Assembly: GCF_000381925.1 (NCBI RefSeq)
Contig: NZ_KB907307.1
Coordinates: 2,728,001 to 2,792,000, forward strand
Direction: 5' to 3'
Source: Nocardia sp. BMG111209
GTDB taxonomy: Bacteria; Actinomycetota; Actinomycetes; Mycobacteriales; Mycobacteriaceae
DNA length: 64,000 nt
Part shown: in pieces, positions 44,756 through 50,328 of the stretch
Numbering within the stretch: position 1 is the first letter of the stretch
Layout: each line of letters begins with the position of its first letter
Program-made: the position numbers and the translations under genes
Notes under the pieces: generated by a model
What the model was told of the DNA's origin: nothing
Database searches by the model: none
The model's input: the letters and a program-made list of their open reading frames with translations, nothing else

Positions 44756-46027
44756 TCAGTTGTTCTCCGGATGCCCGTCGTGGATCCGGTTGAGCACCCA
44801 GGTGTCGCGCCCGCTGGCCTTCGCCAGGTACAGGCCGGTATCGGCGTCGTCGATCAGCTTCTCGGTGTCGACCCCCGCGATCGGGGTCAGGACCGCGCCG
44901 ACGCTCGCCGAGATCGACAGCACCTCGCCCGCACCGATCGGGATGGGCTCCCGCAGCGACGCGAGCGCGACACCGGCCGCGTCGTTCACGCATTCGGCGT
45001 CGCACGGCGGCGAGAGCAGCACCACGAACTCGTCGCCGCCGATCCGGGACAACATCACCGTCGGCGACCCCAGGGCGGCGTCCAGCCGCCGTCCGACCTC
45101 GATCAGCACCCGATCGCCCACATTGTGCCCGTACCGGTCGTTGATCATCTTGAACGCGTCCAGATCGATGAAACACAGGCCGATGCTCTCGGCGGGGTCG
45201 GCGTCCTCCACAATGGCCTGCAGCCGCTCGAGCAGGCATCGGCGGTTGGGCATCCCGGTCAGCGAGTCGTGATGCGCCTGCCATTGCAGTTCCTGCTGCA
45301 GTGCGCGGCGCTCGGTGATGTCCTCCCCCACCGCGACGAGATAGATCTCGGGATCGGATTTGCCGTGCACCAGCGTCATGGTCCAGGAACCCCAGGCGAT
45401 GGTGCCGTCGGCGCGGCAGAATCGGCCCTCGAAATGCGCGGTGCCCTGCTTCCGTTTGAACAGCCGGGTGACGCACAGGCGTAATTTCTCCCGGTCACCG
45501 GGCGCCATGAAATCCAATCCGGACATTCCGATCATGTTCTCGCGCGACATTCCGACCATGCGCTCGGTGGTGGGATTCGCGTCGATGGTGATGCCGTCGA
45601 CGTCGTAGATCGCGATCGCCACCGCGGCATTGTCGAAAACGACGTGGAAGAGTTCCTCGGCGGTCTGCAACCGGCTGGTGCGCGCCGCCAGCAGTTCGGT
45701 GGTGTATCCCCGGGACAGTTCCCCGGTCAGCGCCCCGAGCCGCCGCGTCGTATCCGGTGCGGGCAGCCGTTCGGCCAGCTCGGACAGCATCGACGAGGTC
45801 GGGCCCAGCACCGCCGGGGTGGTCAGCTGCGCCCGGGCCATGGCGACCCCGACCCGATGCGCCGGCTCCGGATCGAACGGCTCCGCCGACAGCGCGGCAT
45901 CCAATTCCGCGATCCATCCGGCCATCCGATGTTCGATGCCGTCACGCGCGGACGAGGGCAGCGGATGGCAGCCCACCACGGCGGCCGACCATTTTCGCGC
46001 CGTTTCGACGACCTCGCGACTGTCCAC
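44756..46027 (-). CDS. PAS-GGDEF diguanylate cyclase
   Basis: About 423 residues. N-terminal helical region (1-125), a PAS domain (about 128-245: [36 protein letters not shown]) with PAC tail, and a GGDEF domain with the intact active site [12 protein letters not shown]. It should make cyclic di-GMP from GTP. No EAL domain, so not bifunctional; no membrane segments. GTG 46027 is preferred (GGAAGG upstream and natural sequence start); ATG 46090 is possible. The signal sensed by the PAS domain is unknown. Confidence 0.9.
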
Positions 46028-46345
46028 CGCGGGAGTACCTTCCTGCACGGTCGATCCGATGTAAACCGTCCACTCACCACTCCCCAGCATACGAAACCCG
46101 TCGAGGAGACGACGATATCGAGTGATCCTCTGCTTTCATTCTTTTTCGGCACGATGATAAAAGTCACGAAACGGCCGCGGTCGACCCGCACCGACGGCCG
46201 CGACGGGTGCGGATTTCGGCGACGACGATCACCGCGTGACAGCGGCATCCCCCGGGCCTGTCCGGAACGAATCATGTTCGCGCCGTTCGTTGTGCAGTCT
46301 CACAGCTCGTCCCGGCGCGACCGCGCCGCTTGCTAGCGTGGCCGC
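46028..46345. other. 318-bp gap upstream of the DAPG-hydrolase-like gene
   Basis: Possibly contains the first 21 codons of the cyclase if its start is ATG 46090. Otherwise no gene. An AT-rich tract lies at 46128-46165. TAGCGT at 46334-46339, 6 bases before GTG 46346, is a -10 box for a leaderless transcript. Confidence 0.4.
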
Positions 46346-47266
46346 GTGGGAGCATCGAAGGTCACGCGACGGCGCGCACTGACCCTGTCCGCGGCGGCCC
46401 TGGGGGCGTTCACCGCCGCGGGAACGGCCCTCGCGGAGCCCCCGGACGCCTCGGACAATGCTCGCTATCCGGGCTATTCCGGCCGGGATCGGGCCCGGCC
46501 CTACGCACGCTTCATGGCCGAGCACACGGACCCGCCGCAGCCCGTCGTCGCGGACGCGTACGCCGGTCCGCCGGTCCCGTCCGACCGTATCCCGCCGTTC
46601 TCCGCGCTGACCACCGAACTCGCGCCCACCGGCTACTCGGCGATCGAAACCGGTTACGGGCACACCGAATCCGGCCTCGTCTGGGTCGCGGCCCGCACCG
46701 AGATGCCGCGGGTGACGGCGGCGATGTGGGACTGGTGGTTCGGCTGGCATCTGCTCGAGTCCGCCCGCTACAAACTGTGGCATCCCGACGCCCACATGTA
46801 CGCCGAGGTCGCCGCCGACCGGCTCGACCGGCCGATGCCCGATCGCGCCCGCTACCTCGGTAACATCTCGTACGTCGACGAGTACATCGGCCCGAAACTC
46901 CAGCAGCTCGCCATCGCCTTCCACGACCCGATCGCGTACGGCTTCACCGTCCCGGACGACCACACCGTCGTCTTCGGCCGGGTCGGCAGCAGCGTCGCGC
47001 CGGTGGATCTGGGCTGGCTCGCCCACCAGGTCCGCCCGATTCCCGGCGGCGCCGAGATGCGCAGCCGCTTCTACCTCCGCGTCTACGGCGCGCACACCCC
47101 GGACCCCGTCCACACCGCCCGCGCCCTCGCCCGCGGCGCCGCCGCCGACCCCTCGGATCTGCTGCCCGGCATCGGCATGGCCCGGGACCTGATGTTGCAC
47201 TGCGGCCAGGAGATGAACCACCTCTCCCGCTTCCTCCCCGAACTCCACGCCGAGTTCGCGGGATAA
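46346..47266 (+). CDS. DAPG hydrolase (PhlG)-like protein with Tat signal
   Basis: 306 residues. Twin-arginine signal peptide VTRRRALTLSAAALGAFTAAG ending in ALA before EPPDAS. The mature part has MPRVTAAMWDWWFGWHLLESARYKLWHPDAH, the metal-binding core of the PhlG-type 2,4-diacetylphloroglucinol hydrolase family, and a late conserved LMLHCGQEMNHLSRFLPEL. PhlG cleaves a C-C bond in phloroglucinol antibiotics. Characterised PhlG is cytoplasmic; Tat export here would place it outside. Substrate is unknown. Start GTG 46346 fits a leaderless promoter. Confidence 0.82.
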   Translation: MGASKVTRRRALTLSAAALGAFTAAGTALAEPPDASDNARYPGYSGRDRARPYARFMAEHTDPPQPVVADAYAGPPVPSDRIPPFSALTTELAPTGYSAIETGYGHTESGLVWVAARTEMPRVTAAMWDWWFGWHLLESARYKLWHPDAHMYAEVAADRLDRPMPDRARYLGNISYVDEYIGPKLQQLAIAFHDPIAYGFTVPDDHTVVFGRVGSSVAPVDLGWLAHQVRPIPGGAEMRSRFYLRVYGAHTPDPVHTARALARGAAADPSDLLPGIGMARDLMLHCGQEMNHLSRFLPELHAEFAG

Positions 47267-47553
47267 CCCCCGCCCGGAGCGCTCCCGCTCCGAGCCACTC
47301 GATCGGCCGTACCGCGTACCGAATCTCCGATATTCTGGCGAGGGGCGGCGTCGTCCGGAGGGGGCGGCATGTGGGACCGGCTGTGGCAGAACGTTTTCGG
47401 TGACCGTACGGGCCCTCGCGCGACGACGGGCCCCGGTCGGCCGGAGCCCGATCCGCGGGCCGTACGGGGCACCGGAACCTGTCGGTGCCCTCGGTTATCG
47501 TCGATTCACGGATCGCGCGCAGTGCCGAAATATTCCGGGTTGAGGGAGTGACC

Positions 47554-48588
47554 ATGGGCGGGACGAATATCGCGGCGTATGCCGTGCGGATGGCGGATGT
47601 CGTGCGGCATCTCCGCACCGGCGACGAGAACGGTGTGGCGGCTGCTGCGGATATCCTCGGATCGGAACTCACCGTACTCACCGAGGAATGGGCCCGGGAG
47701 AAGTTCGACCTCACACCCCGGGAAGCCTTGCGCCATATGGTCTCCGGCGTGAACGACGACGGTCTCGATATTCGCAAGGATTATCTGCACGATTTCCTCT
47801 ACATCGACCTTTTCGACGTCCTCGTCCGATATCACGGCCGGCCGCTGGGCGGCTGGGATTCGATCCGGCCGAGCTGGTTCGGCCGCGCCGACCATGCCCT
47901 GTCCGAGGCGGGTATCGACTTCTCGATCTCCGCACTGGTCCACCGGGGGATCACGGAAATACCCGCGCAGTCCTACGATTCGGCCGTCGGCTGCCTGCCC
48001 TACGACGAGATCCCGGAGATCTACGCCCTTCTGGCCGGGCTGCGCCGCGGCGACCTGCCGCTCGAGCTCATGCACTACGTCGCCGACGTGCGCGATTGGC
48101 TGAAGCAGTGCCTGGATCAGCACCGCGACCTGGTCTGCGTCGCGGGCGGCCGGCCGATCGGCCCGGTCGCGCCCGGCCGCCGCCGGCTGTTCCCGGACGA
48201 GCGTCCGGCGGGCACCTGGCAGCAGCACGTCGACGAACAGCTGATCGCGCGCGGCCCGTTCCGCCACGCCGCCATCTTCGGGCTGGACGGCCGGCAGTGG
48301 GCCGCGAGCGCCGGATTCGAGGTCGGCGCCGCCGAATTGGCCGCACTCGAGGCGCCGCTGGCCGATCCCCGGGTGCCGTTGCCCGGTGGCGTGCGCATCG
48401 CGGGCCGGGTGTATTCCGCCGAATCGCCGGAGCGCGGCCGTATCACGGGTTCGGACCGATCGTGTCATCTCACGATTCAGCGAACGAGCAAGGCCGTGCT
48501 GATTCTCCTGGAGGCCAAACGTAAACCACTCGAGGATGCCGGCGAGGTCGAGGAACAGCTCATCGATTTCCTGGAAACCTACGGCTGA
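47554..48588 (+). CDS. two-domain protein with a C-terminal profilin domain
   Basis: 344 residues. Residues 1-215 form a conserved but uncharacterised domain (LHDFLYIDLFDVLVRYHGRPLGG; PSWFGRADHALSEAG; RRGDLPLELMHYVADVRDWLKQC). Residues 221-344 read as a profilin: TWQQHVDEQL, AAIFGLDGRQWAASAGF, PGGVRIAGRVY, GRITG, LTIQRTSKAVLI and LIDFLETYG align in order and spacing with plant profilin (SWQTYVDEHL, AIVGHDGSVWAQSSSF, PTGLHLGGIKY, AVIRG, ITIKKTGQALVF, LGDYLIDQG). Aromatics equal to the poly-proline site (Trp222, Trp249, Tyr343) are kept. Profilins bind actin and proline-rich peptides in eukaryotes. GAGGGAG lies 5 bases before ATG 47554. Function here unknown. Confidence 0.8.
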   Translation: MGGTNIAAYAVRMADVVRHLRTGDENGVAAAADILGSELTVLTEEWAREKFDLTPREALRHMVSGVNDDGLDIRKDYLHDFLYIDLFDVLVRYHGRPLGGWDSIRPSWFGRADHALSEAGIDFSISALVHRGITEIPAQSYDSAVGCLPYDEIPEIYALLAGLRRGDLPLELMHYVADVRDWLKQCLDQHRDLVCVAGGRPIGPVAPGRRRLFPDERPAGTWQQHVDEQLIARGPFRHAAIFGLDGRQWAASAGFEVGAAELAALEAPLADPRVPLPGGVRIAGRVYSAESPERGRITGSDRSCHLTIQRTSKAVLILLEAKRKPLEDAGEVEEQLIDFLETYG

Positions 48589-48614: not shown

Positions 48615-49079
48615 TCACCAACCGGCCGGCAGCACTTTCGGTTTCCGCGTCCACCACCAGGACAGCTCGATACCGGCCGCGACTTTCCTGGAATACCGGG
48701 ACAATTCGGCGCCGCCGTCGTCGTCCGTCATCTCCCGGAATCGCCGGTCGAGCTCGCCGACCACGTTCTCGAATTTCCGCCGGAGGCGGGCCGGCATCCG
48801 CTGCGAGTTCCGCTCGATACCGTCCCGCGCCTCGAGCAGGTGCAGATATTCGTGCACCGAACAATGATCGCGGGCCGCCCAGAGGTTCTCCATATCGCGA
48901 ACCAGCCCGTTCCACATCCGCAGGCGGGCGAACACCCCGTGCAGCGGCGCCGTCAGGGTGGCCGCGGCCGACGGGCCCAGCCCGCTTCGTTCGACCTCGA
49001 GGCGCCGGGCGTCCAGCTCCTCCACCGCCGCACGTTCCTTCGGGGTCAAACCGGCCAGCAGGTCATCGAGATCGAGCAC
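48615..49079 (-). CDS. hypothetical helical protein
   Basis: 154 residues, not recognised. Predominantly helical, with charged repeats (LDARRLEVERSGLG; RLRRKFENVVGELDRRFREM) and a C-terminal SWWWTRKPKVLPAGW. No membrane segment or signal peptide. It converges on the profilin-domain gene (26 bases between stops) and lies 70 bases downstream of the 49150-49527 gene on the same strand, so it may be the last gene of the YbjQ-like operon. Confidence 0.65.
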   Translation of the reverse strand: MLDLDDLLAGLTPKERAAVEELDARRLEVERSGLGPSAAATLTAPLHGVFARLRMWNGLVRDMENLWAARDHCSVHEYLHLLEARDGIERNSQRMPARLRRKFENVVGELDRRFREMTDDDGGAELSRYSRKVAAGIELSWWWTRKPKVLPAGW

Positions 49080-49149: not shown

Positions 49150-49527
49150 TCAGGCGGCCGTCTCCAGGATCTCCAGCGCCGCCTCGATCTGCGGCAGCGC
49201 GGGCGGGCCGAAGCCGTCGACCACACCGGCCAGGGCCCGCGCCACGTGCGGCCCGACCGCGGACGCGGTGAGCACCTCCTCGGCCAGCACGATCCCGTTG
49301 ACCATGTGCGCGGCGCTGATCCGCTGATCGGCGGTGACCTCGTAACGCCAGTCGCCGAGTTGCAGCCGCTCCGGCGCGGAGCGGAACAGGCCGCGGCGGG
49401 CCGGGGTCCGGACCGCGCCGGGCACCGCGGCGAACACCGTGAACACCAGTCCGGGGCCACCGGGGCCGTGCAGCGCGCCGGCGATCACCGCGGCCGCCCG
49501 CTCCGGGTCGAAACCCGTTGCCGCCAT
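49150..49527 (-). CDS. hypothetical protein
   Basis: 125 residues, family unknown. GLVFTVFAAVPGAVRTPARRGLFRSAPERLQLGDWRYEVTADQRISAAHMVNGIVLAEEVL suggests one alpha/beta domain; no transmembrane segment. It starts 3 bases after the stop of the double YbjQ-like gene, so they form an operon and probably a functional pair. Confidence 0.68.
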   Translation of the reverse strand: MAATGFDPERAAAVIAGALHGPGGPGLVFTVFAAVPGAVRTPARRGLFRSAPERLQLGDWRYEVTADQRISAAHMVNGIVLAEEVLTASAVGPHVARALAGVVDGFGPPALPQIEAALEILETAA

Positions 49528-49530
49528 GGA

Positions 49531-50328
49531 TCAGTCGCCCATCGGGAGCACGAATTGCGGGGTGATCGTCTCGCCCTCGCCGGTCCGGCGGACGGCGGTG
49601 CCCGCCGCGTAGAACTCGACCGTGTGATGACCCCAGGCGTAACTCTCGATCTGGAAGTGCACGCCCGTCACCCCGATCCCGCCGTCGCGTTCGGCCTCGG
49701 CCTGCATCCGGGACATCGCCAGCTCGCGCGCCTGATAGTTGCCCTGGGTCCACTGCGGCATCTCGACGTTGGTGCCGACCTGGCGCATCGACTGCATGAA
49801 TCCCTGTACCGCGACGTGGAATACGCAGTTGCCCAGCACGAACGCCACCGGCGCGAACCCGGATCGCAACAGCGTCACCATGTCCTGACCGGACAGGTGA
49901 CTGGTGAACGCCTGCCCGTTCGGCCGCCGGAACCGGCCCGGCTCGGGGACGTACCGCACCGCGGTGCCCACGGCGATGAACTCCAGATGATTGGCCTCGC
50001 CGCCCACGTGCCGCCACTGCAATCGCACCCCGACGATGCCGTCGGCGTGCAGCGCGTCGGCCTCGGCCTGCATGCGCGCCATGGCATTCCAGCGGGCACG
50101 GTAGGTGGCCTCGGTGAGCACCTGGAGTTCGGCCTGCTGCCGCAGGCCGGCGAACTGGAATCCCACGTGGTAGACGGACACGCCCATGACCAGGTCGACC
50201 GGTTCGAATCCCGCGCCGTGCAGCAGCGCGAACTCGTTGACCGACAGGTCGGAGGTGAAGATCCGCCCGGCATGGGACAACCGCTCGTTCGCGGTCGGTT
50301 CCAGCGGCGGTTCGGAATTCGGTTGCAC
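49531..50328 (-). CDS. tandem YbjQ-like (heavy-metal-binding/DUF74-type) domain protein
   Basis: 265 residues made of two related halves. Each has a start like GRIFTSDLSVNEFALLHGAGFEPVDLVMGVSVYHVGFQ, a helix with ARMQAEADALHADGIVGVRLQ, and an EFIAVGTAV strand. This is the YbjQ/UPF0145 fold, normally a pentameric single-domain protein of unknown function, here duplicated. Between the halves, PNGQAFTSHLSGQDM starts the second copy. Cytoplasmic. Operon with the gene at 49150. Confidence 0.82.
   Translation of the reverse strand: MQPNSEPPLEPTANERLSHAGRIFTSDLSVNEFALLHGAGFEPVDLVMGVSVYHVGFQFAGLRQQAELQVLTEATYRARWNAMARMQAEADALHADGIVGVRLQWRHVGGEANHLEFIAVGTAVRYVPEPGRFRRPNGQAFTSHLSGQDMVTLLRSGFAPVAFVLGNCVFHVAVQGFMQSMRQVGTNVEMPQWTQGNYQARELAMSRMQAEAERDGGIGVTGVHFQIESYAWGHHTVEFYAAGTAVRRTGEGETITPQFVLPMGD

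Follow-up and report, generated by a model that had tools for sequence, protein, structure and literature searches.

Profilin is a textbook regulator of actin in eukaryotes, and the profilins of the Asgard lineages, in which a partner actin is present, are thought to be ancestral rather than acquired. The only bacterial profilin that we found in the literature searched, in the parts of those papers that were available, is PfnM of Microcystis aeruginosa, a eukaryote-type protein that has its actin alongside and whose presence has been attributed to transfer out of a eukaryote (PMC3254629). According to the available portion of that report, PfnM is 84% identical to eukaryotic profilin, its gene adjoins (in one strain) the gene of the actin ActM, and the protein decorates ActM filaments; it was termed in 2012 the only known prokaryotic profilin homologue (PMC3254629). 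Asgard profilins were described after PfnM (PMC8410842), and a 2021 review counts the profilins of cyanobacteria and viruses among probable transfers (PMC8387879). Mammalian PFN4 is counted as a profilin without having the actin-binding residues (PMC2694148). Microcystis and Asgard are the only prokaryotic sources of profilin named in the accessible text of the papers searched; these papers, covered partly by title and the start of the abstract, contain no mention of a profilin in Nocardia or of one fused to DUF7691. Because a bacterial profilin gained by transfer is already known (a precedent that the first-pass annotation of the DNA described here had left out), what appears to be new in the Nocardia protein is that its profilin is fused to another domain and is kept in several species without an actin.

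A gene for a DUF7691-profilin fusion

The window is the whole stretch of DNA that was analysed, 64,000 nucleotides of the genome of Nocardia sp. BMG111209 (9.14 Mb in five contigs). The first-pass annotation had proposed an open reading frame at positions 47554-48588 of the plus strand, and this frame stands: it begins with an ATG at 47554, ends with a stop codon at 48586-48588 and encodes 344 aa (P0001; residues are numbered on this protein throughout). A codon model trained on the long open reading frames of the window itself indicates that the frame is coding along its length, GC3 is nearly the same in the profilin part (0.80) as in the remainder of the gene (0.84), and a purine-rich stretch before the ATG, gaggga (47542-47547, plus strand), is a putative ribosome-binding site. 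Residues 3-195 (47560-48138, plus strand) match the profile of DUF7691 (PF24740; E = 3.7e-19; 70.1 bits against a curated cut-off of 27), so that what had been called an unrelated actinobacterial domain is indeed a fused bacterial domain and now has an identity. A linker rich in Arg and Pro follows (residues 196-220; 48139-48213, plus strand), in which the motif RRRLFP-x-ERP is found in all four Nocardia fusion proteins, and residues 221-344 (48214-48585, plus strand) make up the profilin domain (PF00235).

That residues 221-344 are homologous to profilin is near certain. In the profile comparison that the first-pass annotation had suggested, PF00235 matches the fusion protein at residues 221-341, over positions 2-123 of the 127 in the model and thus over the whole domain (E = 2.3e-15; 57.2 bits; curated cut-off 25), and it matches the profilin piece alone with an E value of 2.1e-16. 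The solved structures nearest by sequence are those of Acanthamoeba profilins (1f2k, E = 7.2e-14). Consistent with this, AlphaFold predicts a profilin fold, with N- and C-terminal helices over a seven-stranded sheet, although the 28 other profilins in its input alignment tie this model to the sequence match. The profile of Roadblock, a structural cousin of profilin (Roadblock/LC7), gave no match to the protein. Compared with Acanthamoeba profilins I and II (1acf and 2acg), the Nocardia domains are 33-35% identical, share the fold over its whole length and have in common the N-terminal WQ-x2-VD, the stretch AAI-x-G-x-DG-x2-WA-x-S and most of the groove aromatics. Unlike eukaryotic profilins, the Nocardia domain sits behind DUF7691, ends one residue earlier, has lost most of the residues of the actin face and occurs in a host without detectable actin. 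The profilin chains of Asgard (Loki, Odin and Heimdall) are 17-18% identical to the Nocardia domain.

The fusion is found in a few Nocardia and is kept at one place

Three further proteins contain both Pfam domains and align with 100% of the query: P0003 from N. aurantia (81% identity), P0004 with JGI as its source (68%) and P0005 from Nocardia sp. alder85J (66%), in which PF00235 scores 61.9, 56.1 and 61.2 bits, respectively. Their public records already carry the source name "profilin", assigned by automatic naming. With these relatives the alignment is not limited to a single sequence, and the core proposal of the first-pass annotation, a true profilin homologue joined to a bacterial domain, is backed by sequence, predicted fold and relatives alike. 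When 150 Nocardia genomes were surveyed, PF00235 was found in three, namely those of BMG111209, N. aurantia (G277) and alder85J (G853); there are four fusion proteins in all. The survey covered samples of the Actinomycetota, together with 14 control genomes, and the profile was present in 2 of 401 genomes of the family sample, 1 of 397 of the order sample and 1 of 396 of the phylum sample (the BMG111209 genome in both of the latter cases; the Nocardia, family, order and phylum samples overlap) and in none of the 14 controls. Plasmids, phages and viral contigs yielded no relatives of the whole fusion protein.

The fusion gene lies, in all three of these genomes, between a same-strand gene for a DAPG-hydrolase-like protein and a pair of genes encoding a DUF5073 protein and a YbjQ-type protein. 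In the window, the upstream neighbour, which encodes a DAPG hydrolase PhiG-domain protein and is not part of the fusion protein, occupies 46346-47266 (plus strand), and the pair, at 49150-50328 on the minus strand (DUF5073, 49150-49527; YbjQ-type, 49531-50328), marks the insertion site. (Note that the genes around these loci were called with our own script rather than with a standard program.) A gene of 154 aa (48615-49079, minus strand) separates the fusion gene from the pair in two of the three genomes; it has a 77% relative in N. aurantia, is not called at this place in alder85J, and has no Pfam, NCBIfam, PADLOC or PHROGs family above cut-off. The YbjQ-type protein of BMG111209 is 97% identical to that of N. 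aurantia and 97% identical to that of alder85J. In alder85J, the flank past the YbjQ gene is unlike that of BMG111209, and the opposite flank has common genes plus insertions. The DUF5073 and YbjQ-type genes are adjacent in five Nocardia stretches, with other neighbours that vary; in the two stretches beyond the three fusion loci, those of G271 (82% and 89% identity for the pair) and G797, gene calls show the pair without the fusion gene, and in the G271 stretch tblastn gave no match to P0001. With the same place occupied in three genomes and the pair present without the fusion in G271 and G797, the simplest history is a single gain before the three species parted, followed by vertical descent.

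We entertained the idea that the fusion gene and the DAPG-hydrolase-like gene form a cassette and rejected it, as 36 of the 148 Nocardia genomes searched have the latter, which also occurs without the fusion; at seven such loci inspected from these 36 genomes, it had other neighbours and there were no matches to P0001. As separate observations, the DAPG hydrolase PhiG-domain protein has, by eye, an RR motif near its start that might direct export through Tat, the match to its gene in G793 is split, with two TGA codons within one piece, and the protein encoded at 44756-46090 (minus strand) contains a stretch that by eye looks like a GGDEF (diguanylate cyclase) domain and has an 82% relative in alder85J, located on the corresponding side of the fusion gene.

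Contamination or chance resemblance can be dismissed. The profilin part is in frame with DUF7691 on a contig of 5.06 Mb and is found at the same place in three genomes, and the GC content is 0.67, compared with 0.70 for the window. Moreover, against a profile built from 120 eukaryote-type profilins and containing zero Nocardia rows, the real domain scored 71.2 bits, whereas none of 200 shuffled versions exceeded 2.0 bits.

The fusion protein is under purifying selection. Comparison of BMG111209 with N. aurantia (NG86) gave a dN of 0.074 and a dS of 0.499 for the profilin part (ratio 0.15) and a dN of 0.121 and a dS of 0.463 for the DUF7691 part (ratio 0.26). Two other pairs, for which dS is nearer saturation, gave ratios of 0.25-0.28 and 0.33-0.34 for the profilin and DUF7691 parts, respectively. 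The lower ratios in the profilin part indicate that the constraint on profilin is at least equal to that on DUF7691.

The profilin domain was probably captured from a eukaryote

The profilin domain alone, compared with a large protein collection, gave 62 candidates and none at an E value of 0.001, which probably reflects a shortage of exact five-letter words in common; an alignment-based search then gave 657 matches. The best 120 of these 657 were examined and are 28-39% identical to the Nocardia domain. Many of the matches are metagenome or transcriptome proteins whose hosts cannot be told, and the term "120 eukaryote-type profilins" is therefore a description of likeness only. The organism names that are printed in full among the best 120 are all those of eukaryotes, mainly what we take to be amoebae and early fungi, chytrids among them. 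Unlike PfnM, the Nocardia domain is at some distance from other profilins, belongs to a two-domain protein, is kept in several Nocardia and has no actin that we could find.

Alignment scores to Acanthamoeba profilin are 125-139 for the Nocardia domains and 71 for human profilin. The median score to the 120 matches is 126 for P0001 and P0005 and 76.5 for human profilin, and yeast profilin is much nearer, at 263.5; note that the profile with which these matches were gathered included two Acanthamoeba domains besides those of Nocardia, so that the comparison is biased towards Nocardia relative to human. In phylogenetic trees the four Nocardia domains form one group (support 100 in the first tree and 99/93 in the second) on a very long stem, and the trees, with 126 columns and many open forks, name no donor. 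Both the closeness to profilins of Amoebozoa and early fungi and the patchy distribution of the domain favour capture from a eukaryote, which we regard as highly probable. It is correspondingly improbable that the domain belongs to an old bacterial profilin family with no eukaryotic transfer, as the first-pass annotation had allowed in suggesting a divergent bacterial family: human profilin stands further from amoebozoan and early fungal profilins than the domain does, and just 3 of the 150 Nocardia genomes have PF00235. Capture from a eukaryote would have involved an amoeba- or early-fungus-type profilin gene that entered the founder of a small group of Nocardia a single time, became attached at the 3' end of a DUF7691 gene already resident there, and has been maintained at one chromosomal site. 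It would add a case in which a eukaryotic cytoskeletal domain has passed to bacteria and been combined in one protein with a domain of the new host.

Most groove aromatics are kept and most residues of the actin face are lost

Poly-proline is bound in a groove formed by Trp3, Tyr6, Trp31, His/Tyr133 and Tyr/Phe139, and the residues involved in actin binding are Phe59, Arg74, Arg88, Lys90, His119, Lys125 and Tyr128, according to the available part of a published comparison (PMC2694148). Two groove tryptophans are invariant in the four Nocardia proteins, Trp222 (48217-48219, plus strand), which aligns with human Trp3 and Acanthamoeba Trp2, and Trp249 (48298-48300, plus strand), which aligns with human Trp31 and Acanthamoeba Trp29. 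The first-pass annotation had named both of these correctly, with Tyr343 as the third aromatic. Tyr343 (48580-48582, plus strand), a position that is aromatic in 4/4, adjoins the position of the final groove aromatic, for which there is no aligned Nocardia residue; the third groove aromatic is instead Phe339 (48568-48570, plus strand; Phe in 4/4), aligned with Acanthamoeba Tyr119 and human His133. At the Tyr6 place is His225 (48226-48228, plus strand), which is His in three of the four proteins and Tyr in P0005, and Tyr in 120/120 of the other profilins (the best 120 of 657). Three of the five groove positions are thus aromatic in every Nocardia protein. Whether the domain binds in the poly-proline manner is, judged from these residues, about an even question, and the altered Tyr6 place and the unaligned last aromatic argue against it. 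Substitution Y6A in Leishmania profilin is reported to lower poly-proline binding to an undetectable level (PMC10907219), and in heimProfilin such binding can reportedly be weakened by an extension at the N terminus (PMC8410842).

The face that would contact actin is more heavily altered. In the Nocardia domains the Arg74 place is Ser in 4/4, the Arg88 place (Ser300; 48451-48453, plus strand) is Ser/Ser/Ala/Ser and is Lys in 119/119 rows with a residue, the His119 place is Pro in 4/4 and is followed by Leu/Leu/gap/Phe, the Gly121 place (Gly in 119/120 other profilins) is Glu/Glu/Asp/Lys, and the Lys125 place is Glu in 4/4. Human PFN1 is basic at 74, 88, 90 and 125; of these four places, the Nocardia proteins are basic only at 90, where all have Arg. 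The Nocardia domains therefore do not carry the set of residues by which actin-binding profilins would be recognized (Arg74, Arg88, Lys90, His119-Gly121 and Lys125), a set that is a feature of function rather than of descent. Of the columns conserved in at least 90% of the 120 profilins, Nocardia keeps 15/18 in the region of Acanthamoeba residues 1-64, 3/16 in 65-113 and 4/7 in 114-125 (15/18 versus 3/16, Fisher p = 0.0004). Human PFN1, an actin binder, scores 11/18 and 5/16 in the same columns and so also departs mostly in 65-113; thus the column test alone does not show that actin binding has been lost. The net charge of the Nocardia domains is -3 to -6, compared with a median of +1 (range -5 to +7) for the 120 other profilins, untrimmed. 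On these grounds actin binding has probably been lost, and the points that count against such a loss are the Arg at the Lys90 place and the Glu at the Tyr128 place, which is found in 120/120 other profilins and retained in 4/4 Nocardia domains.

The actin profile PF00022 had no match in the four Nocardia genomes searched (BMG111209, G277, G853 and G271); it did match in 6 of the 14 control bacteria, where we take the matches to be MreB. No actin partner for the profilin of BMG111209 can thus be recognised in its own genome. This absence would not matter if the captured profilin still bound eukaryotic actin and left the bacterium, by release or by injection, to disturb the actin of amoebae, fungi or insect cells, as in the exported or toxin-like binder that the first-pass annotation had raised. 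At least one habitat would suit this: N. aurantia came, as far as the available description tells, from the eukaryote-rich gut of a fungus-growing termite, and the name alder85J, by itself, suggests a plant source. The proteins do not. The signal peptide that the first-pass annotation could not see is not evident by eye, nor is any other export signal, in 4/4 the actin face has lost most of its basic residues, and the domains are net negative; we consider an exported actin binder unlikely.

A possibility that we rate higher, and still as clearly short of probable, is that the captured profilin serves as a scaffold whose ligand is neither poly-proline nor actin; a lipid of the membrane and a protein of Nocardia are examples of what it might bind. 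The altered groove tyrosine and last aromatic speak for a scaffold, and there is a precedent in mammalian PFN4, which according to the accessible text binds phosphoinositides and neither actin nor poly-proline (PMC2694148). PFN4, however, retains just one groove aromatic (PMC2694148), whereas Trp222, Trp249 and Phe339 are invariant in four Nocardia domains whose sequences diverge by as much as roughly one third. In addition, a lipid ligand sits poorly with an acidic domain in which the PIP2-linked Lys69 place is Val/Val/Ala/Asp. A groove that is kept beside an actin face that is lost suggests instead a module that holds a proline-rich peptide. Of the three readings offered by the first-pass annotation, a transferred domain used to bind proline-rich peptides fits best, since the groove retains the majority of its aromatics, the majority of the conserved residues that face actin have gone and the genomes searched yielded no actin gene. 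A profilin that persists under purifying selection without detectable actin offers a way to ask what role is left to the fold, in terms of which ligand site selection keeps (the groove) and which it drops (the actin face).

A proposed role for the fusion protein and its DUF7691 domain

Taken as a whole, a single capture, fusion to DUF7691, loss of actin binding and use as a cytoplasmic adaptor for proline-rich peptides is the explanation that we favour, with a probability of roughly 0.5. The groove between the first and last profilin helices would hold proline-rich segments of another bacterial protein; alternatively, it may hold the protein's own Arg/Pro linker, which lies just before the groove helix and could gate the groove. 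The profilin part might so place or gate the DUF7691 domain, and we infer the step from binding to an effect on DUF7691. That this is the first actin-free bacterial domestication of profilin, as a reader of proline-rich peptides that steers a YfbM-like domain and is possibly gated by its linker, is a tentative proposal to which we give slightly less than even odds. The genomes that have the fusion are not richer in eight-proline runs: eight-proline codon patterns number 19, 10 and 17 in these genomes (overlaps counted) and 26 in G271, which has no fusion. Of the five eight-proline matches in BMG111209 that are given as loci (out of 19), one is within a called gene (L057).

DUF7691, which is not named in the literature searched, gains from the fusion a first handle in the form of a named binding module. 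PF24740 is present in at least 66 of the 150 Nocardia genomes, a lower bound because the search missed the alder85J fusion copy, which hmmscan finds in P0005, and many of the PF24740 open frames listed are 190-223 aa long and could not accommodate a second domain of this kind. In the full-length model the N-terminal half came out poorly, and it was therefore folded separately; a full-length alignment with stand-alone DUF7691 rows put the ends of these rows on the profilin part and was excluded from folding. The fold predicted for DUF7691 may be like that of YfbM, which we take to be DUF1877. YfbM of E. coli (1ryl) and DMP12 of Neisseria (3w1o) have no sequence match to the fusion protein, and the Foldseek E value of 0.73 is not significant. 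A role of DUF7691 in defence or in phages was considered and set aside, with zero PADLOC families and a weak PHROGs match (E = 0.31) in one relative only. BMG111209 has a second DUF7691 gene, without profilin, at C1:2403013-2403531 (minus strand; L027), and the gene order around it is common to N. aurantia (L028) and alder85J (L029).
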